Shown here: in pieces, positions 9,899 through 64,000 of the stretch
Numbering within the stretch: the first letter of the stretch is position 1
Layout of the letters: every line of letters begins with the position of its first letter
Program-made: the position numbers and the translations under genes
The notes under the pieces: model-generated
Databases searched by the model: none
What the model saw: the letters and a program-made list of their open reading frames with translations, nothing else
What the model was told of the DNA's origin: nothing
Source of the DNA: Datnioides undecimradiatus
Lineage: Eukaryota > Chordata > Actinopteri > Lobotiformes > Datnioididae
Direction of reading: 5' to 3'
Assembly (NCBI GenBank): GCA_008933995.1
Contig: WARS01000012.1
Location: 2,666,001 to 2,730,000, forward strand
Length of the DNA: 64,000 nt

Positions 9899-12800
9899 GT
9901 CCCTCCCTCCCTCTCTGCCCCCACGTCCTCCACACTACTTCATTCTTTCCTCCCGTGAAGCTGCCCTGGAAGTCTCTGACTAGTATCATAGAGTACTACT
10001 ACATGTGGAAGACCACAGACAGATATGTGCAACAGGTGAGACCTATTTGGGATTTTTGAAACAATTAAATAAATACTTCATATATTTTAAAATCTTTACA
10101 GCATTTCTGTTTGGAGAGTCTAAAGATATATTTTTAGCATTTTTTAAAAATATATTTAGGTGAAAGGCTCTAAAAACCTCTGGAGTTCAGTTTGTTTACA
10201 TTCAACGTTGCATACTAAAATCCATTGTGTGCATACTTGAAGCTAACTTAGTATATAATTTGCATAGCTTTTCCAAGTTTGTAAGGTTCATTTAATAATT
10301 TTTCTTCATCGCACTTATTTTGCATATTTCTTAGTCATGTTCTTTAAGCTGTACTTTTAGACCTTTATAGGCCACTGCAATGCAAATGGGAACTCCAGTG
10401 ATTTAGTATTGCAGTTCCATAAAGTTGGAGGCCTCTTCAGAGACAGATATAAAAAAAAAAAGAAATGGTCGAGATTGATGCAGCAGGAGCGCAAAAGTTG
10501 TTCCCTGCCTGTTAAACACAGTTTTCTGTGAAACCCCATGCAGCTGTGAGTAATGCAGGTTTTCCACCAAGACAGTTTGTCATTTAGCATCATCAGAGGG
10601 CATTTTACAGCTGTTGACAAATAGAACTATGTTTTTAAGTGTTAAGTTGGCAATGTAAATGTTTCACTGGAGTGAAATGAATTTAAAATGCATGAAAAAC
10701 TGCTAACTTCAAATAAATAGCAAGGTAAATGTTATCTGTCAGAGAAGAGGCGACTTCTGTTAAGAGAATGAGCCAAATATGTAACAAGACACCTTTTCCA
10801 CTACGCTGTAAAGATTTAAGTGAAAGGTGTAACAAAGAATGGAAACGCTGAATGTGAAATGCACTGACACATTCAATGATTATCTTTGTAATCCTGCAGC
10901 TCTGTTTTCTTCCCGTCAGAGTTAATTTCAAAATGTGTCAATTAACTGTCTGAGAAGATTTTTATGAAAGACAACAGCTGATTTCTTTTATTATTGCTTC
11001 AATATGCTGTGTTTCTCTCTGAGCAGAAGAGACTGAAGGCAGCAGAGGCAGAGAGCAAACTGAAGCAGGTTTATATCCCCACATAGTAAGTCACTTCATT
11101 CCACTTTTATAGACGTTAGCATCGTCATTGTACCGGTGGCTGCAAGATAATCATTGTTTTATGCATTATTCATACATTTTGCGCAGTGCAACTGCAGACA
11201 GTCTCTAAATCTCTCTCTTAGATGTTAAATCTCTTCTTTTGCTTCTCTCTGACAGTAACAAGCCCAACCCCAACCAGATCTCAATGACCAATGGCAAGAT
11301 GGCAACAGTGAATGGAGCAGGTCCTGGGGCCTACCACGCAGCGGGCGGGGGCAGAGCCTGCGAGAGTTGCTATAGTGAGTTTTGCGTATGTGTGGAATGG
11401 AAATTAAATCAATGTACGATCACCAAAGAAGAAAGAAACCAGTTTGTTCTTCACTAGTTTTTCTCTCTGTAACTTTTTCTTTCATTTAACTTTCACCATT
11501 ACTGCCTATCTGCTTATTTATCATGACAACTGTCAACAATCAATATCTCTCCTTGACTCTGTTCCTAAAAGCAAAATTTGAACCTACATTGCGACTTGGG
11601 CTAACAAGCAGTTTCTTTGGTTAGTATTGTTACTTTGATTAGTTGTCAGAGAATGAAATTTTCATCCCAACTTCACAAGGTGATATTGTCGAAGTGCTTG
11701 TTTTGTCTGAACAACAGTCCAACCCAGCCAGATATTGACTTTACAATATTATGATGCAAGAAAGAAAAAGAAAATGTAGATTAGCTAAACTCACTCTCAC
11801 AGCCATATTCCTACATTAACCCTGCCTCAGTGTGGGACCACAGACCCACCTTTTTAATTACCTGCATAACTAATAATAAAAAGATGATTTGTCCAAAAAT
11901 CTCTTTGAACTTCAGTTAAAAAAATAAATAGAATAAATAAAATCTAAGCCTCTGACCTTACAATACATACTTGTGCGGACAGAGTTGATACTGTTAAAGT
12001 CTCTAATTATACAAATTTCATTATTCAGTAGCAGACATCCAGCGAGACATGGTCTGCAGTGTGGACATTGATTAAATCATTTAGAAAGAGACTTGAGACA
12101 GTGGCAGAGACATCAATATGCTGAGTGTGTTTAGACCAGTTCTCTCCAGTGACGCTTCTCATCTTCATTAATGCCTTTCGCACGTTCACAGCCATGCAGT
12201 CGGCCCAGTGGTACTCATGGGGGCCTCCGAACATGCAGTGCCGCCTGTGCGTTTCCTGCTGGATGTACTGGAAGAAGTACGGAGGCCTGAAGATGCCAAG
12301 CAGAGCAGAGGGCCCAGAGGAGAGGACCTCCCCCAGTCCAGCAAGCAATGTAAGCTCAGTCAGGAGGCACATATGCACAGCACATGGGATGCAGTGGGGA
12401 GGAAAGGTGATCTGGGGAAATGAAAGTGTCTGCAGTTCTTCTTCACATGCTAAAAGACTCCTAACCTCAGAACTTGTTCCACACAACTACAGCTCTGTAG
12501 GATTTAACCTTATATGCAGCATAATGTGCTGTTTTAAGCTGTCAGATTCAATTATTCAGTAGATACAAAACTTGTGTACTGTATCACTTGTATTAGTGTT
12601 TAATAAATTCATATTTCTATGTGCCGATTTATTCTTAGGTGAGAAGGTTTTTTCATGCTTACACCTGGCTTCACTGTAGTTAACTATTATTTCTGCTGGT
12701 TTAAATAATGTTTTCAAGGAAATTATACAAATTGATGTTGCTATGTTTGGTCCGATTTGAATAAGAGGCATTACAAAGGACCAAACTGTACCTGTGTCTG

Positions 12801-15800
12801 TGCTGGATAAACCTCTTTCACTTTTTGGACTTTGACAGATTTCGACTTGTCATAGCAGCAAAAGTACTGGTGTAATTAACAGTATAAATGATAGCTCGGT
12901 GTAATTGAAGTGTCTCAGTTAAGTGATCGTAAGCCAACGTGCACAACCTCCAGAACCCTCGTACCATCTGAAATAAATGGAATACACCAGCAGCCATTTT
13001 TATTAAAGTTATCAGTTATACCATCCTGTCATGGAGAAAGGCCTGGTGTAGCCAATCTCTGTTTCAATGGCCTTCCTTTTACAATCTTTTGCAGTCTAAT
13101 ACTACAACCCCGCAAGAAGTCCTTTATAATGTAAAATGTTTCAATTCTAATGTCTTTTTTAATAACAAGTGCAGATTCAACTTTATAATGATTTTGGAGG
13201 CTGCAGTGCATTGTTCACTGACATGAACAGGGAGCAACAAATATTTAGTGATGCCCATCAGAGGCACCACAAACTGCCTCTAGAATGATCATACAGTTGA
13301 GTTGATGCCTCACTCAAATTATTTCAGCAAAAACATAAAATATAACCTTTATGAAGGTAGGACTGCTTCATTTGAATACTACTTTTAGCTAGTGTACCTA
13401 ACTAATTGGAAAAGTGGCATATCATGCATGTTGATGCATATAGTTTTGTGTTCAAAATGCACGTCATCTAGAGACTTCTGTGTTTAGATAAAACATAAAC
13501 ACAAATCTCTTATACAAAGTAAAAAAGCTGTTCTGTTGGCAGAAATTGGTGCGTTCTTGTAGCTCATCTTTACAACTAATTGAGAAAGTAGGTTCTCTGA
13601 GCATTTAAAACGGTTTTCAATCCTCTGACATAATTTTTAATGAGCTTTATTGAATAAAACTGTATTCACTGGCCTCTTCTCTGCCCCTCTTTCCTTTCCA
13701 GGAGCCTCGCTCACGGAATCACGGTCCCCGCCAGTCCAACCACATGGTGCCGATGCGAAACAGCGGCAGCCCCAAATCCTCCATGAAGACCAAGCAGGCT
13801 TTCCTGCTGCAGGCCACCCGCCTCACCAAGCTGGCCCGGCACATGTGCCGTGACATCATCAGGCTGCGCCGTGCCGCGCGCCGGCCCTTTGTCCCCATTA
13901 ACTGTGGGGCCATAAAGGCAGAGTGTAAGAGCTCTTTCAATTCCTCCTAACTTCTGCCACATGGACACACACACACACACACACACCTGCAGACAAAACA
14001 CAACATAAGCAGACACACACTGACACGCAACACACTCGCCACCCTTCCTCAACCCAACTGCCCCACCATCAGCCCCCCCATCTCTGCTCATCTTTGCCCC
14101 CCCCCCGTCTGTCTCTCTTTCTGTTTTTATTATTATTGTTATTATTATTTTGGTTTTGTATTCTCCCACCCCCTGTTTCCAATAAAGACTGCCTGTCCTC
14201 ATAACTATGAGTTTTGATCATCTTTTCATTTGTGTTTTTTATTTTTTTATTTATTTTGTTCCTTTATCTCTTATGGTTCTTAGTCACTGTGAACTGAAAG
14301 CCATTGTTGCAGTTACACACAAAGATCTATTGGTTAATCAGGGCTATTCTACATGAGCACGCCTGCACACAGCAACTGATTTCGCTCCTGTCATTAACAA
14401 GTAGACTGTAACAGGATCCAGTAGAACTCATTATCTAGTCTGAGCCGTATATTTGCTGAATTTAGATGTAGAGAAAATGTATTTTGCTAAGAGAAGCTCT
14501 ATTTTGCACAGCGCCCCCCCCCCGGCCCCAGCGCTCTGTGCAGTCACGGCTGAACGAGTTGTCTGCGCCACGAATGTTCATTGTAAATGCTGAACCTCAG
14601 CTTCAGTGTGTCTGCCGTCACCATTTTCTCACACTTTTGCTCCTTTCTGCACGCACATTTTCATGCTTTTAATCGTGTGTTTTTGTGAGTGTATTTAGAC
14701 AATGAATTGTGTTTTCGGTTGATAACGAGCTTTAGACTGATGAAACTTGAAAGAAAAGAGGTTGAAGCTAAAGTGACGACCTTTTTTAATAGTCTGGTAC
14801 AAAGAATAACTAGCTGCTCTTGACCTCTTTGCTGCTGGCTGCATCTCACACTGTAGATTGGGAGTCATCAACTGGACCATGTCCTCTTGGATGGTCCCTC
14901 TCCATACCATCCACTCAGCTGTTCCCTTGTGTTCAGATCATGCAATATTCATATGAATCCATCATGTTGCCTCTTGTAAATCCCGCAGACAGGATTTGCC
15001 ATTCAGAGCCATTCCTCCCCTCCATTTTGCCTCCCCGTTCTTCATTTTCTAACAACTGTTGCAATATTCTCATCTCCTACCTCTTTTTTGCTCTTTTTCT
15101 TTCATCACTGTGTGAGTGTGAGAGTAGACCTCCAATAAAGTCGCACCTGAAAGCATCTCTTCCGAGTCCTTGTGCTTCATGTGTCCCGTGTTATCTGTCC
15201 ATCAACTCCACCACACTCAGAGGAACCATAAAGGCACGCCTCCCGCCCCTTACCCAGCATGGACTCAACCTTCAGTGCCTGCTGTCATTATACCTTCATA
15301 CTGGAATGTATGTGTGTTTACAGTATTTTTTTGTTGTTGTTTGTGTGTGCATGTGAGCATGTACTTATATCAGAGTGCATGTGGAAGAGATTATTCTTTT
15401 GTGGACATGCCATCCCTGAACGTAAGTAACCACATTAACACCTCAGTGATTTGCTCACGTGTATTGACTCCTGCATCCTGTGCTGCATCCATTTTAAACA
15501 AGATAAGAGGTCATCTTCATTTACATAAGACGTCCATGTTCACATCATAAACAGGTCACCTTTATCAACAGTCAGAGCTGATCTAATACATATTTATTCT
15601 GACTGATTCTGCGCAAATGTTAAACAGTATTTAGTATTCATGAACAGTCTGTATCTCAGCAGATATAGAGCGACATCATACAGTCTGAGAGGCACTGCAC
15701 TGCTTTGTAAACTGTGTGTATGTGTGTTTGGTTTAGACATGTTAAGGGTGTCCGAAGGGCAGGGGACTCGCCTACCCAAAACCAGAGCCGCCCAGAGGAG

Positions 15801-18800
15801 CACTCTGACCAGTGTTCTGCAGTTTCTAGGTAAAATCCACACACATATTAAGTGTTTGAGCAGAAATATGTGATTGATTTTGTTCGACTGTGCAGGAAAA
15901 ACCAAAGAAATATGAGAAGAAATTATTCAGATGGTCTATGTGAGCCAGTTGATACAGCTCCACTGTGGTGTCTCTTCCAGAGTCCCGTCCTGCAGCCCAC
16001 ACCCCTCGCTCCCACCGCACCCCAGGCCTGCAGACACCTCCCCCTCGACGCCTCCTCTCCTCTCTCCCACACGGCCCCCACGGCATGCTGGGAAAACGCA
16101 GCTACCATCACCACAGCAGGGCTGAGCCGGACAGGCGCTCAGGTACACATACGGGCACTAATTACACAAATGTTGTTATGACTTTTTTTCCAATAAGACT
16201 GTTATTGCTTAACTTAATCCTGTCTGGAAGCAGAGTCATTATTTGTTTTAGATCAGTTTAAACCCCCTCAAAAAAATTGGAAAATTTGTCCATTCCTGCT
16301 TTTAAATAAGTTAGCTCTGATGTGAATTAACCTTGGGGACCAAACAGTGTTGATATCCAATGCTCTTGTCATCCTTTTGCTTGATAAAATCAAATTAGTG
16401 GAGATACACCCGGAGTTGATAACCTTTTCTGCCATTTCTTATCTAAACTAGCTCGTTGGAGAGAATGACAACTAATTCTAATGAAAACGAATCAGCAGAT
16501 GGGGGTCATTTGGATAATTTGGATGATTCAACTTCAGTCTGACACTTTGTTTTTTATTGGTAACTTCACTATTTTTACTGAAATTGAAACACAGTCATTT
16601 GTTGCACCACTTGTAACTAGGAAAAGTTATAAACCAATCAATAATATTCACACGTGACAGATTCCCTCATGCATACTTTGCATTTTTCCCTTCTTTTTTC
16701 ACAGAGAACCCAGGCACAACAGGTGGACCCCTCATGGTAGGTGCCTCATCTAAAATACTGAGTATAACTGCATCATCGTTTATTGCAATAAAGTTATATC
16801 TAATTGTCTTTTTGCAGCATAACGGCCGCAACAACAGCAGTGGAAACACCCGGGGCGGAGTGATGATTCGCAAAAGGCGCCCCAACTGGATCGATGCCCC
16901 TGATGACAGCTTCTTCCTTGTCACCCGGGAGACCAGGTAAGCAAAGGTGACCCTTTTCTAACCTCTGAGTGGCTGACTGTGTGTATGTGTGTGTGTGTAA
17001 AGGGAAAGCAAGTGATGCTGAGAGCCCAGTGACAGCAGATTAGATGAACTGATCTGTGACAGAAAAGGACAATTAGTGTGTTATTTTTGTCCTGTGGTGA
17101 CCTCAGACAGCCGTGTGGCGCACACACACACACAAATAGATACACTATATATATGTGGCTAAATTCATAGAAACCCATTCAGTTGAAACAGAGTGGCATC
17201 CTGGGAAGCTTGCCAAGTCTTGTTGTCATTATCTAGGGGTGCAAATGGTAAAATTATGAATAATTTAAAAAATGATTTGAATTGTTTATTTTCATCATAA
17301 TACCAAAATGGCTCCTGCAGCTAAGAAACAATGTTAAAGCACCACTTTTTACAAACTACATTGAGATATTTTTTGGGCAGTTGTGCAACCCTCTCACTCT
17401 CTAGCCTAAGCAGTTGCAGTGTGGTTACCCCAGCAAGGGTCTGCTCTTTGCTTTGGTGAATGTAGGATTTAGAGGCAGCTTAAAAATCAGATCAGTATTA
17501 GAGGATGGTGTTTCAACACAGCCTGATAGTCACTGCAGGGCTTAATGATAGATTGAAATGTAATTTAATATCAGATCAGTAATGACCTTTAATAAGAATA
17601 CTCACTTACATTATAATTAAACAGGTTACCATACATAAAATGTGAAAAATCCAGAAAATCACATTTAATAGATGGGAGGTGTTGGAGGAACTCTCACTTG
17701 TGATCTCTATTTTTAAATCTCTGGCCTGAACTGAACAACACTGAGTTGGTTTTTTTTTTTAAGGTTTTGAAGTTTGGCCTTCAGATTTTATTGAGTATTT
17801 TTCACTGGTGCCTCACTGCCAGCATTTAATTATCACTGTGTAGAATTCAACTTATTTTTAACCATGCTAGCCATGTGGCTGTAATGATCGCAATCGGTAT
17901 TGATGATGAAGAGCTTTTGGATGGATCCAATGAAGTTCTGCTGAGATGTTCATGGTGTCCAATGATGGGTGAAGCAACAAAACTTTATAATAGTCTCTCT
18001 AATACTTTGTGTTCATTTCTACAAAAATGTTGACTGTAACAAACATGGTACCTGTCAAACATCAACCTGTTATCATGCTGGTATTAGTATTTATCTTAAA
18101 GCACTGCTGTGTCAAAGAGAGGGCTGACAGAGCTGCTAGCACAGTGTTAGGCATTTGTAGAGATACTATCTATTCCAGACTGATTCGAATGAAATTATAG
18201 GCAGATTTAATGATGCATTCAAATATAAATGAAGGTCCTGTTAGGTGAAAGATTGGGCACAGAAGCAGAACAAAGATAAGGCAGCAGTAGCTAAAAGTTA
18301 AAAGGCAAAGACAAGATAAATACTTGCAACTGTAGCGTGGCAATAGCATTGGTACAACACTGTAGAACTCAACAAAACATATATTCTACTGGAGCTTCAT
18401 ACGTGCATGAGGTTTGGAGGTAGATCAGCAGCAACAGAGAGCCACGCCCAGGCAGACACACACACACACACACACACAGTCAAAAAGGACAAACAAGAAA
18501 CAGTAGGAATGAGTAAGAGGTACATTCGGGATAATAACAATTAAATTAAATTAGTTAGCTCCTCCATAAACAGCTCTTCACAAATTGTGATGGCTCAGCA
18601 TCCTCCAGTAATTTACTTCTCATTGACCGATGCAGGCTGGTATTGATTTTTTTTTTAATCTTGTTAACAAATAACTTTCCTAAGACTGCAGTGCAGGTAT
18701 CATATTTAAAAAAGAGTGGCTGTTAAAATAAAATACAGATCCAAACGTCTCAAGAACACAAACAGTAGATAACTAACATTCATGATCATATTCCGCAGTC

Positions 18801-21800: not shown

Positions 21801-22752
21801 AAGACAAAGTGACAATTAGCCGACAACTACAGTTTCATAAAACAAAATAACTATCCTTTTACTTTGGTTAAAGCTGCTGCAGTTAAAATTTCCAATGCAC
21901 CAAACTGATATGTGTAATGTGGTTGCCTGTTCATTATATTGGTTTTACAGTTTGCAAACTGTACTCATTTGAAACCTTATTTACAAAACAAACCAGACAG
22001 CTGTTTTTTCTGGTAAACCTTCTGTACACTACCTCCTCAGCAACAAAACGTAGTGACTAGCTGGTCAGCAGAGCAAAGTATCTAGCAGCTAAAGGGCCAG
22101 ATATTCTTCTCAGAAGGTGGTGGAGACAAAAACAGAACTAAAAGAGTGTGTATACCGGCCAAATGCACAACTCCAAATGCCTCCAGAAGAGTGCTAATGT
22201 TGCTCCGCATCTACTGAATGTGAATAGGCCATAACAACCGTCTGTACAGTGATTATACATTAATGTTGAGTTTAGAGCAAAAAAACAATTGATGCTGCTT
22301 AAACGTCTTAAATTACAGATTAACTCTGAATGACTTTAATAACTTCTCATCTATGTTGGCTTAAAAATTGAGAATAAAAATTATTTCTTGACTTTGTGAG
22401 CAATAATTGGGTTTTACAGTGAGTATTTTTTCTACCACTTGACTGTCACTACTAACAAGTACTGCTTCCAGCTTCAAGACTTCCAGTAATCTGGATTAAT
22501 TTGGATTTTTAATTTTTCTTTTAATTTCATCCGTGTCTTTTCTTCTACACTTATGTCCTGTCTTGTCTCCACCGCTTCAGGAGGGCCAGACGGCTGCTGT
22601 CCCGCTCCCAGCTGAGACACGCTTGCCGGCAGCCATGTGAGCAGATCACCCTTCGCAGGGTCTCCCAGGGCCCACCGCAAGGGCTCGTCCTTGCTCCTCC
22701 ACACCCTCACCCCAGCCTAAGGATGCGAGGCCCCATCGTCATCCACGACTGA
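1882..22752 (+). CDS. mta3: MTA3, NuRD-complex metastasis-associated protein (long form, exons 2-19; exon 1 lies upstream)
   Basis: Scaffold subunit of the nuclear NuRD deacetylase complex: recruits HDAC1/2 through ELM2-SANT and RBBP4/7 through basic C-terminal motifs (family knowledge). Coding exons, all AG..GT with matching phases: 1882-1949, 3120-3213, 6670-6796, 6947-7010, 7309-7426, 7995-8097, 8402-8501, 8594-8782, 9961-10035, 11027-11085, 11256-11374, 12192-12349, 13702-13924, 15737-15829, 15981-16142, 16705-16736, 16818-16936, 22581-22752. The first codon is split (G|AT); if exon 1 encodes the usual nine residues, the protein is about 700 aa. BAH runs to about 147, ELM2 148-258, SANT 265-317; a GATA-type finger has Cys377/380/398/401 (CX2CX17CX2C); an RBBP-binding-type RRAARRP lies near 490-496; WIDAPDD is at 628-634; the C-terminus is PIVIHD. 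Assignment to MTA3 rather than MTA1/2 rests on [51 protein letters not shown] and the LSPSP-like linker. Exon 15 is the least conserved placement. No frameshift or premature stop is seen. Confidence 0.95.
3214..6669 (+). other. MTA3 intron 3
   Basis: 3.46 kb intron between the A|AG halves of Lys64. It holds a G run at 6012-6024. Short open frames here lack any recognised similarity. Confidence 0.8.
8783..9960 (+). other. MTA3 intron 9, with long (GT)n next to exon 10
   Basis: The (GT)23 tract at 9851-9896 sits about 65 bases before the exon 10 acceptor, close to where a branch point would lie. Bases 9715-9845 form a complex, low-repeat stretch that could be a conserved element. Confidence 0.7.
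9851..9896. repeat. (GT)n microsatellite
   Basis: Uninterrupted GT dinucleotides; open frames of alternating Val/Cys or Thr/His on either strand here are artefacts. Confidence 0.95.
10036..11026 (+). other. MTA3 intron 10
   Basis: AT-rich intron within the segment encoding the end of SANT and the following basic helix. Nothing else recognised. Confidence 0.8.
12350..13701 (+). other. MTA3 intron 13
   Basis: AT-rich intron after the zinc-finger exon. Nothing else recognised. Confidence 0.8.
13702..13950 (+). CDS. mta3: MTA3 short isoform: exon 14 read-through terminus
   Basis: If the exon 14 donor (T|GTAAGA at 13924/13925) is not used, the frame continues TGT AAG AGC... and ends CKSSFNSS-stop at 13948-13950, giving about 516 aa. 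The same bases therefore serve as a codon pair and as a splice donor. Human MTA3 has a short isoform of about 515 aa that ends the same way (Cys-Lys then a few residues; established knowledge recalled, not checked). The long form instead joins T to AC of exon 15, changing Cys509 to Tyr. A poly(A) signal follows 230 bases downstream, so a complete alternative terminal exon is present. The short form keeps BAH, ELM2, SANT, the zinc finger and the RRAARRP motif but lacks the MTA1-like tail. Confidence 0.8.
   Translation, partial: EPRSRNHGPRQSNHMVPMRNSGSPKSSMKTKQAFLLQATRLTKLARHMCRDIIRLRRAARRPFVPINCGAIKAECKSSFNSS
13951..14205 (+). other. mta3: 3'UTR of the MTA3 short isoform
   Basis: CA repeat at about 13965-13986, C-rich tract at 14098-14107, then AATAAA at 14181-14186. 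The cleavage site is inferred at 14200-14210. The sequence is otherwise noncoding. Confidence 0.65.
14181..14186 (+). promoter_or_regulatory. Poly(A) signal AATAAA for short MTA3 transcript
   Basis: Canonical hexamer 231 bases after the read-through stop, followed by a T/G-rich stretch (14208-14235) of the kind expected downstream of a cleavage site. Confidence 0.7.
14206..15736 (+). other. MTA3 intron 14, part downstream of the short 3'UTR
   Basis: Contains a C run at 14513-14523 and pyrimidine-rich DNA around 15000-15250. Open frames of up to 178 codons (14820-15356) show no recognisable domain and are not called. Confidence 0.6.
16937..22580 (+). other. MTA3 intron 18 (5.6 kb), with possible conserved noncoding segments
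   Basis: The largest intron of the gene seen here, with a (CA)n at 18456-18478. Two stretches, about 18,900-19,540 and 20,130-20,800, have balanced composition and high word complexity unlike the flanking AT-rich DNA, and resemble conserved noncoding elements. That reading is inference without alignment. Confidence 0.5.
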
Positions 22753-25307: not shown

Positions 25308-25401
25308 GCTCCAGTGGCGCAATCGGTTAGCGCGCGGTACTTATATGACAGTATTCAGCAGAGCGATGCCGAGGTTGTGAGTTCGAGCCTCACCTGGAGC
25401 A
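25308..25401 (+). tRNA. tRNA-Ile (anticodon UAU) with 20-nt intron
   Basis: A 7-bp acceptor stem (GCTCCAG with CTGGAGC at 25394-25400) and discriminator A25401. D-arm GCGC..GCGC. Anticodon stem CGGTA (25335-25339) with TGCCG (25367-25371). Anticodon TAT at 25342-25344. A 20-nt intron at 25346-25365 follows A37. T-arm GTGAG-TTCGAGC-CTCAC. Box A and box B cores are present in the D- and T-arms. CCA is not encoded, as is normal for nuclear tRNAs. Vertebrate tRNA-Ile(UAU) genes characteristically carry an intron at this place. The mature tRNA reads AUA codons. All stems pair, and a T5 terminator follows, so it is probably functional rather than a SINE relic. Confidence 0.94.
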
Positions 25402-39977: not shown

Positions 39978-39989
39978 CTGTAGGCAGTA

Positions 39990-42900
39990 ATGGGTGCATT
40001 CCTGGATAAGCCGAAGACAGAGAAGCATAGTGCCCATGGGGAAGGTAATGGACTGCGCTATGGCTTGAGCTCCATGCAGGGCTGGCGGGTAGAGATGGAG
40101 GACGCTCACACAGCTGTGGTGGGCCTCCCCCATGGACTCGCCGACTGGTCCTTCTTTGCTGTCTACGATGGTCACGCAGGCTCCCGGGTGGCCAACTACT
40201 GCTCCGGCCACTTGCTGGAACACATCTTGTCAGGAGGGGCTGACTTCAGTTCAGGATCTGGCTCCGTTGAAGGTGTGAAAGACGGCATCCGCTCGGGCTT
40301 CCTGAACATTGATGAGTACATGCGCAGCTTCTCTGACCTGCGGCAGGGCCTGGACCGCAGCGGATCAACAGCCGTGTGCGTGTTGCTCAGCCCGACCCAC
40401 CTCTACTTCATTAACTGCGGTGACTCGCGGGCCGTGCTAAGTCGAGACAACAAGGTGGGCTTCTCCACCCAGGACCACAAGCCCTGCAACCCCCGTGAAA
40501 AGGAGCGCATCCAGAACGCTGGCGGCTCAGTCATGATCCAGAGGGTAAACGGCTCCCTGGCTGTGTCCCGGGCCCTCGGGGACTACGACTACAAATGTGT
40601 GGATGGTAAGGGCCCCACGGAGCAGCTGGTGAGCCCTGAACCTGAGGTGTGTGTGTTGGAGCGGGTCGCCGAAGGAGATGAGTTTGTGGTGCTGGCATGT
40701 GATGGAATCTGGGATGTCATGTCCAACGAGGAGCTGTGTGAGTTTGTCCGCTCACGACTCCTGGTGTGTGATGATCTGGAGAAGGTCTGTAACTCAGTGG
40801 TGGACACCTGTCTGCACAAGGTAAGCTTCTTTTTTCACTTGATTGTGCATTTGAGTTGAGTGTCCACATAGTGAACTGCTTTTAAACTACTCTTGCATAA
40901 TTTAACTTAACTTAAATAGTTGACTGAAGGGACTGACTGCTGTAAAAGGGATCATTCTGGTTTGTAACAATATCCTGGTGATATTGATTTAATATTTGAA
41001 GTAAATCACACATTTTCTCTGTCATCCTGGTTACTGCAACACAAATTAAAGTCATCAAGTCTTCACTTTGACCAATTTATGGGTAAAGTGGGTGTAGTGA
41101 GGATCCTTGCTTCTACATATTCTACATATAATATCACATCTTCAAGAACAAATCTGCCTGTATTCTTCTCTAAATTCAAGTAATGATTAATGAAACTTAA
41201 AGCTGCAGGAGGCTCTTTCAGCATGCCGCATTCCTCGTAGGGCCCACTCTCCACACTGGTGGTCTAAGCACAATTCTGATCCCTCTCATGTCCATCTCAA
41301 AAACACCCCACATCCCTTTTGTGCTTTGTGGCCCCATGGTGGAGCGCCCTAGGTTTCGGAGGCACATGCAATGCTGTGTAACAGCAGGATTAGAAGATGG
41401 CTCAGACGTCCTCTTCATCTTGTTCAGCAGATCCTCAATCTTCTGGGATGTGTGCGCCACATTACTGAACTGTAATGGGGTAACACTAATTACATTGCAA
41501 ATGACATTTGAAGTGCTCGTCTTAAGCTTCATGGCTAGTGTAAAACACACGCACACACTCAAAAGTTATCCCCCACTGTTTGTCATCATGTTTTTTTGCC
41601 ACTTGTCGATGTGAGCACCATGACATCAAACATAATGTGTCAATGTGAAGCCAGGATGTGTTCGAACAGGTTTTATACTACACACCATTGACAAAATTCA
41701 TTATTCATGGAAAATTATAATGCAATAAAATTGCAGACTGCTGCTTTGACATTTCACAGTGAGAGATCAGATAAATCAGAGCAATAATGCATCATTGCTT
41801 TCAAATTTATCTTTGCCCATTGGCCTTTTCAGCAATTGATCCTGGAAAAAGCAAGAATCACACCTTAACTGAACCCACCCACCAATCCTATCTTGGACTT
41901 TTGCCTTCCCTGTATCACTTATTTTGTGTCTAGATTACTCCAGGAACCAGCAAGTGCAGAGCAGCCTAGTTATTTTTACCTTACTGGATGGCTTATCTCA
42001 AATATCAGCCACACTCTGTCATAAAGCTTTATCCTGCCTGTAACTGTGTGTCCTATAGATGCAGAATAATATGTAGCCAGTGATCAGGCTATGGCTTCAA
42101 CCAGCCTCTGGTTAATTTCTAGGGCTTCAACCAGGGGCTGGTTGGGCCTTTCACATTCCCTTCAGATTTATTACACAGTAAATGTATTTATTACACATTA
42201 AATGAGTGAATAAGTTCCATAAAAGCTTTGGAGCTGAATTGATTAGTTGATTAAAAGAGTGTTAGTCGACCAATATGTTGATAATTGATTAATGGTTTTC
42301 AAGCAGAAATGTTCTTTGTAGCTTTTCTTTTAGGATTTTCAGGTGTTTTTGTCCTATTTTGAAAAACATAATGGAGCTTGGTTGTTTTTCCAACATTTTT
42401 GAACATTGTTGAGTTGAAGAAGAGCTTTAGCTTGTCTGCCGTTGTCTCCAAATCACAACTCTTTATAATCCCTGCAGCATCACTGATCAAAGCAGTGCTT
42501 ACTGCAAAGACGACATGTCAAGTTTTCATGTAAGCAAACAAAGCTTCTGTTCACGTTCGGCGTTACCCACCAAAACTCATTGTTATATATCCTTGAGGTC
42601 TAACAAACATGTTGAATACATCTCCTCATAAAACATTTATAAGGCTCAGCTTCTGTTGTTGTTGTTGCTGATGTTTACATTTTGTGACCTGCATTGTTTA
42701 CATTGAGGTCAGCTGATAAATGACAAAAAGTGCTCAAAATATGTTTTGAAACGGTGTCACTTTTCCAGAGAGCAGTGAATAGTTTATTATTCCACTCTAA
42801 CGTGCCACATGTCCTGCTCAGTATATTTCTTGCCCCCAGCTCTTTAAAAACTTCATTTAATTTCTGTTTGTGTAAATCTCAAAACTCTCCAGTGATGATG

Positions 42901-63239: not shown

Positions 63240-63525
63240 ATTTGTTTGTTTCCGGTTTTGTGGAAGTGCATGCAATAGAAAGGCAGCTCAGATGGGACTT
63301 AATGTGTCCAGCCTGCGCTCAAAAGGAAGGAGATAAATCCTCTGTGTTTGATTGACAGTGCTGCCATGACAACACCACATCAGCTCCAGTGTGTCCAATC
63401 AGGAGTCAGATTCATGGTCCCTCCCTGACTCCCAGGTGAGCTAAAGAGTCAGACTTCAGCAGATTTCTGACAGACTGTTTAAGAGAAACACCTTGCCTTC
63501 TCTCTGAAGCCACTCTATCATCCAG
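63240..63525 (+). promoter_or_regulatory. Proximal promoter/5'UTR of the SIX gene
   Basis: Contains a perfect PBX-MEIS composite word TGATTGACAG at 63349-63358, GATAAATCC (63332-63340) resembling a bicoid/OTX-class site, and CCAAT at 63395-63399. The transcription start is not determined. Confidence 0.45.
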
Positions 63526-64000
63526 ATGGTGTTCAGATCACCGCTCGACTTTTTCTCAGCCTCCCGTATCCTCCTGCCCCACTTAGCGGATGGGCCCCCT
63601 ATATTGTCCCGCACCAGGTCCCCAGAGGACTCTCCCTCCGCCTGTCCTCCCCTGGCACTCCCTGGACTGTGTTTCTCTGCGGCGCAGATCGCCAGCGTCT
63701 GCGAGACTTTGGAGGAGACCGGAGACATCGAGCGGCTGGCCCGTTTCCTCTGGTCACTCCCGGTGACCGCAGACGGCCGCGACTCCATCTCTGAGCACGA
63801 GTCCGTGCAGCGGGCTCGCGCCGTGGTGGCCTACCACACGGGGAGTTTCCGCGAGCTTTATCACATTCTGGAGACGCACCGCTTTACGCGTGCTTCGCAC
63901 GGTAAACTGCAAGCAATGTGGCTCGAAGCACACTACCGGGAGGCGGAGAAGCTCCGGGGTCGACCGCTCGGACCAGTCGACAAGTACCGTGTGAGGAAGA
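63526..64000 (+). CDS. SIX3-class homeobox transcription factor, N-terminal part (six7 or divergent six3 duplicate), cut by window end
   Basis: Open frame of 158 codons running off the window. It starts [17 protein letters not shown], matching the SIX3-type N-terminus (MVFRSPL...LPNFAD) rather than SIX6, which starts directly at MFQLP. The SIX domain begins at about residue 51 ([20 protein letters not shown]) and ends with [14 protein letters not shown] at the window edge, where the homeodomain would begin. SIX3/6 proteins bind DNA through the homeodomain and recruit Groucho/TLE through the SIX domain to pattern forebrain and eye (family knowledge). Unlike canonical SIX3 it lacks the FQLPTLNFSPEQ block ([10 protein letters not shown] here), has SEHES for NKHES, and carries several changes in a domain that is nearly invariant in true six3 genes; its N-terminal linker is short. 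That points to six7 or a fast-evolving six3 paralogue. The start is the only ATG in frame upstream of the conserved N-terminus. Confidence 0.9.

Follow-up and report, generated by a model that had tools for sequence, protein, structure and literature searches.

A candidate composite terminal exon at the R1 exon of mta3 in the fish Datnioides undecimradiatus

The stretch of DNA analyzed here (the window; 64,000 nt from Datnioides undecimradiatus) carries an mta3 gene on the + strand, running from exon 2 at 1882 to the last coding exon at 22581-22752. The exon in which the R1 domain begins is preceded by 12 exons and followed by five, with AG/GT ends and compatible phases in a single frame. Pattern searches of the window for exon 1 gave no match, and this exon may lie outside it. 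Judged by its sequence the gene is mta3: the MTA domains are present and, in a comparison of MTA3 with MTA1, are closer to MTA3. A preliminary description of the window had already called the gene MTA3, and several features bear this out. Placed at 13771 in exon 14, the reverse primer printed for zebrafish mta3 (PMC4038851) differs at 1 of its 20 bases, the next best placement having 6 mismatches; the forward primer has at least 6 mismatches at every placement in the window. The BAH domain is without the extended loop of MTA1, and the downstream neighbor is a ppm1b-like exon (39984-40859; PPM1B 518.7 bits vs 479.4 for protein phosphatase 1A, PPM1A). At least three MTA_R1 matches were found in the same genome, mta3 included, and the two besides it look like mta1 and mta2. 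Searches for relatives of the R1 exon returned 19 pattern stretches in viral contigs and 121 in genome contigs, none of which was confirmed, as expected for a vertebrate gene. Elsewhere in the window, a tRNA gene match (25308-25401; Rfam RF00005, 55.3 bits) lies 2.6 kb past the mta3 stop codon, and a SIX-family homeobox gene at 63508-64000 is cut by the window end, its sole PDB match being a SIX1 chimera.

An approximate human MTA3 sequence, used as a query, matched 13 exons of the gene and gave no match to the exons at 15737, 16705, 16818, and 22581; these four are supported by their splice sites, their reading frame, and the MTA1 alignment. We take the human protein to have 594 aa, with a branch point at residue 509 and an exon 1 coding 10 residues, and its short form to carry a tail that starts with Cys-Lys and holds Asn-Ser. 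A text search of the literature for the letters of that tail gave no match. The 594 aa agree with the length printed for MTA3 in the literature.

The features at and behind exon 14 are as follows:
13702-13924, + strand: mta3 exon (exon 14); codes for the opening part of the R1 RBBP4-binding domain, which the MTA1 alignment equates with contact regions A and B
13925-13930, + strand: 5' splice donor GTAAGA after T, with 5/9 matches to CAG|GTAAGT
13924-13950, + strand: read-through tail CKSSFNSS and stop TAA (13948-13950) in the unspliced reading
13951-14200, + strand: putative 3' UTR of the short mRNA, with a predicted end
14181-14186, + strand: candidate intronic poly(A) signal AATAAA, identified from the sequence, at +256 in an intron of 1812 nt
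14195-14246, + strand: U-rich stretch scored as the downstream element, best-20 score 16.0
15134-15139, + strand: second AATAAA of the same intron, at +1209, with a weaker context (score 11.5)

The last base of exon 14 is the T at 13924, followed by GT at 13925-13926 in the context GAG TGT, so that the same letters serve as donor and as codons. The preliminary description had placed T|GTAAGA at 13924, with a Cys-Lys read-through, a stop 24 bases on, and an AATAAA 230 bases further, and its coordinates hold: the stop TAA is at 13948 and the AATAAA at 14181, which begins 233 nt from the first base of the stop. Joining 13924 to 15737 turns the interrupted codon into TAC (Tyr). Among the 17 donors of the gene, this one and the donor at 11374 share the lowest match to the consensus. 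The predicted short Mta3 has 506 aa without exon 1, or approximately 516 aa with an exon 1 of 10 residues, the size assumed for human. The overlap of donor and codons is itself already known, and in mouse ES cells it has been edited on purpose.

Five exons continue the long form:
15737-15829, + strand: next exon; completes the Tyr codon and supplies the remainder of R1, aligned to region C and helix H4
15981-16142, + strand: exon supported by splice sites, frame, the human MTA3 query, and MTA1 alignment
16705-16736, + strand: predicted exon, based on its splice sites and reading frame
16818-16936, + strand: exon with NWIDAPDD...TRETR, the start of a stretch homologous to R2
22581-22752, + strand: last coding exon, with the rest of the R2-homologous stretch, the C-terminus PIVIHD, and stop TGA

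The branch point falls inside the R1 domain. Exon 14 with its read-through tail matches positions 1-53 of the 78 in the Pfam MTA_R1 profile (E 2.3e-26), and the spliced form, exon 14 joined to the exon at 15737, matches positions 1-78. Alignment to PDB MTA1 places the junction residue at MTA1 512, past the PYxPI loop, which the eLife structure paper gives as MTA1 499-503. In the MTA1-R1:RBBP4 crystal structure, residues 519-528 are disordered, and both they and helix H4 lie past residue 512. The eLife paper names seven contact residues, and counted by eye the fish R1 keeps six of them, the one change being Tyr to Phe. The predicted short form would thus retain all or almost all of contact regions A and B and would be without region C. 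We infer that an R1 trimmed in this way may affect RBBP4 binding.

At the far end of the long form, the fish Mta3 C-terminus aligns to MTA1 442-710 with an E-value of 5.8e-40, and the R2-like stretch shares 26 of 48 residues with MTA1 R2. Searched alone, the R2 peptide chain 4pby reached fish Mta3 at E 0.0037, above the default cut-off of 0.001. Four of the seven MTA1 contact residues (A, R, P, I) are kept in the R2-like stretch, counted by eye, and the R2 of fish mta2 likewise keeps four of seven by the same count. The eLife structure paper states that R2 is absent from the MTA3 of any species and credits MTA2 with R2; Burgold et al. 2019 (PMC6576150) cites that statement for Mta3. At the level of homology the fish mta3 exons, as predicted, disagree with the printed absence, and they call in question its extension to all species. 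No description of R2 in fish MTA3 was found in the literature searched on R1/R2 and fish. No R2 exon of mta1 was found in the approximately 14 kb read past its R1 exon, and a whole-genome search with MTA1 R2 gave four matches, two of them mta3, and is insensitive, since it missed the R2 of mta2.

The AATAAA at 14181 has a downstream U/G-rich score of 16.0, which is reached by 3 of the 139 AATAAAs on both strands of the window, itself included, and the T count behind it is the highest of the 139. GT-type triplets behind it are unremarkable, as many being found at 32 of the 139, and so is the UGUA upstream, which 60 of the 139 have. Three of the 17 mta3 donors are followed by an intronic AATAAA no more than 250 nt from the read-through stop, and among these three 13924 has the best downstream score (16.0 vs 12.0 or less). 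In the introns after 10035 and 12349 the AATAAAs are nearer to the read-through stops than in the exon 14 intron, and the intron after 7010 has an ATTAAA 150 nt on. One good poly(A) site among 17 introns is not very surprising and is not proof by itself. Within the predicted short-form 3' UTR there are also C runs at 14073-14079 and 14097-14106, and a CA repeat at 13965-13986, 41 nt past the donor, which we take to be a possible hnRNP L site. This CA-rich stretch is behind nearly all of 105 genome matches, and with 27 CA or TG runs of at least 12 bases in the window such repeats are common here; any role of the repeat or of the C runs is speculative.

The mta1 and mta2 genes of the same genome provide a control at the equivalent intron. 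The mta1 donor, AGAAT|GTAAGG, reads through as CKDKIPLILVT*, and that of mta2, GAGT|GTATGT, as CMCTRASAIHLL*, starting Cys-Met; for each of these two genes splicing also yields a Cys codon. Across the three paralogues the read-through therefore begins with Cys in all three and with Cys-Lys in two, and stops after 8 to 12 residues. The intron of mta3 has 1812 nt and two AATAAAs vs 130 and 166 nt for those of mta1 and mta2, in which neither AATAAA nor ATTAAA was found, short introns also leaving less room for one. As far as these sequences go, it is the poly(A) context, and not the early stop or the Cys-Lys, that sets mta3 apart. Cys-Lys carries no evidential weight, because T|GTAAG necessarily reads TGT-AAG and mta1 has it too, and it was dropped as a sign of conservation. 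The mta1-like gene lies at C466:11206500-11225000.

A short MTA3 arising at this site is on record for mouse. According to Burgold et al. 2019 (PMC6576150), mouse Mta3 exon 14 has an alternate donor at GAA TGT, and from the RNA-seq viewed there the short isoform was judged predominant in ES cells. The preliminary description had proposed a short MTA3 end at this position, and the mouse thus makes one. A study of mouse atherosclerosis (PMC11672872) gives variant 3 (NM_001171053) a 1542-bp CDS and a 93-bp 3' UTR; variant 1 has the spliced end there, with a CDS printed as 1757 bp, a figure that is not a multiple of three. That study terms the donor cryptic and the event cryptic splicing, and it reports no alternative polyadenylation. 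For human, a review (PMC12827195) puts MTA3 at 515 aa and mentions a shorter isoform, MTA3s, with elevated expression. A length of 515 aa would imply a 7-residue human tail if the 594-aa sequence branches at residue 509. The claim that the human short form is of similar length to that of the fish stands, at 515 aa printed vs approximately 516 predicted; the same Cys-Lys start, which had been read as conservation, does not, being forced by the donor and present in mta1. The label 'MTA3S' in PMC3686714 was considered as a short isoform and rejected, as it refers to siRNAs. A review table names MTA3 as one of the genes that CPSF1, a poly(A) factor, affects in breast cancer, and specifies no site. 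No intronic or premature poly(A) site of MTA3 was among the literature matches listed, and remaining papers or supplements may hold one.

The sequence elements and the identity of the gene are established for the fish, and the donor and the short isoform have been established by others in mouse. An in-frame stop shortly past the donor and an intronic poly(A) signal with a downstream element, the sequence marks of a composite terminal exon, are both present. We consider it probable, at roughly 0.78, that the region is such an exon and the fish copy of the event known in mouse, with presumed use in fish. The alternative that all of this is chance, with an ordinary constitutive donor before a long intron, an unused fish AATAAA, and a mammalian short isoform that arose separately, gains from the base rates, as a stop within 8 residues is found at 39% of + strand positions of the window and an AATAAA within 257 nt at 22%. 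The forced Cys-Lys and the two other mta3 introns with an AATAAA nearer to the stop point the same way. By themselves the stop and the hexamer are indeed close to chance expectation; the poly(A) context taken whole is less so. Few other AATAAAs match the downstream score, and it is in this very intron of Mta3 that the mouse short isoform ends. We therefore regard chance as unlikely. Simple retention of the intron, with the unspliced RNA kept or degraded, a distal end used, and the site at 14181 idle, would suit a donor among the weakest of the 17 and sits poorly with the good poly(A) context at +256 of the intron; we think it very improbable.

On the composite terminal exon reading, recognition of the donor 13924|13925 by U1 would lead to the long Mta3 of approximately 700 aa. 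Where splicing is slow, cleavage and polyadenylation behind the AATAAA at 14181 would end the mRNA in the intron and yield the short Mta3 with its tail CKSSFNSS, and we infer that splicing and intronic polyadenylation compete kinetically. The short protein would keep the BAH, ELM2, SANT, and GATA domains with R1 regions A and B, and would lack the R1 helix H4 together with the entire C-terminus, the R2-like stretch included. We expect such a protein still to associate with HDAC1/2 and to bind no more than one RBBP4/7. A wider proposal, which we hold to be possible and somewhat doubtful, is that a splice-or-polyadenylate switch at the MTA3 R1 exon has been kept since the bony-vertebrate ancestor; fish would still toggle between a form with R1 and the R2-like end and a trimmed-R1 scaffold, thereby setting the number of RBBP4/7 copies per NuRD, and mammals would later have lost the R2 end. 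The MTA3 product is a scaffold in a gene-silencing complex, and the fish gene can probably make both a short and a long protein. If the short ending is used in fish, it would be an old regulated gene ending and not a mammalian feature, and zebrafish would offer a simple test of the role of the short form in NuRD.

The closest known system is the mouse Mta3 short isoform, as described in the two mouse papers cited above. In both species the donor overlaps Glu-Cys codons (GAA TGT in mouse, GAG TGT in fish), the stop lies in the same exon, and the long form arises by splicing at that donor. The predicted fish 3' UTR of the short form has approximately 250 nt vs 93 bp in mouse, so the two poly(A) sites need not be homologous, and the fish long form, unlike mouse Mta3, would continue to an R2-like C-terminus. 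The human MTA3s of PMC12827195 (515 aa in the text cited) is near-identical in length to the predicted fish short form. MTA1s, described in PMC4244562 and PMC4841774, is likewise a short MTA form with an altered C-terminus; it differs in that the cut lies between SANT and GATA, is followed by a 33-residue extension, and leaves the protein without R1 and R2. This kind of gene ending has thus already been described in mouse, and what is new here is the fish instance, the paralogue control, and the R2-like exons. With intronic polyadenylation at composite terminal exons in general, a subject of the atlas PMC5928244 among others, fish mta3 shares the donor, the early in-frame stop, and the intronic poly(A) signal, and it would be a further case of that class.
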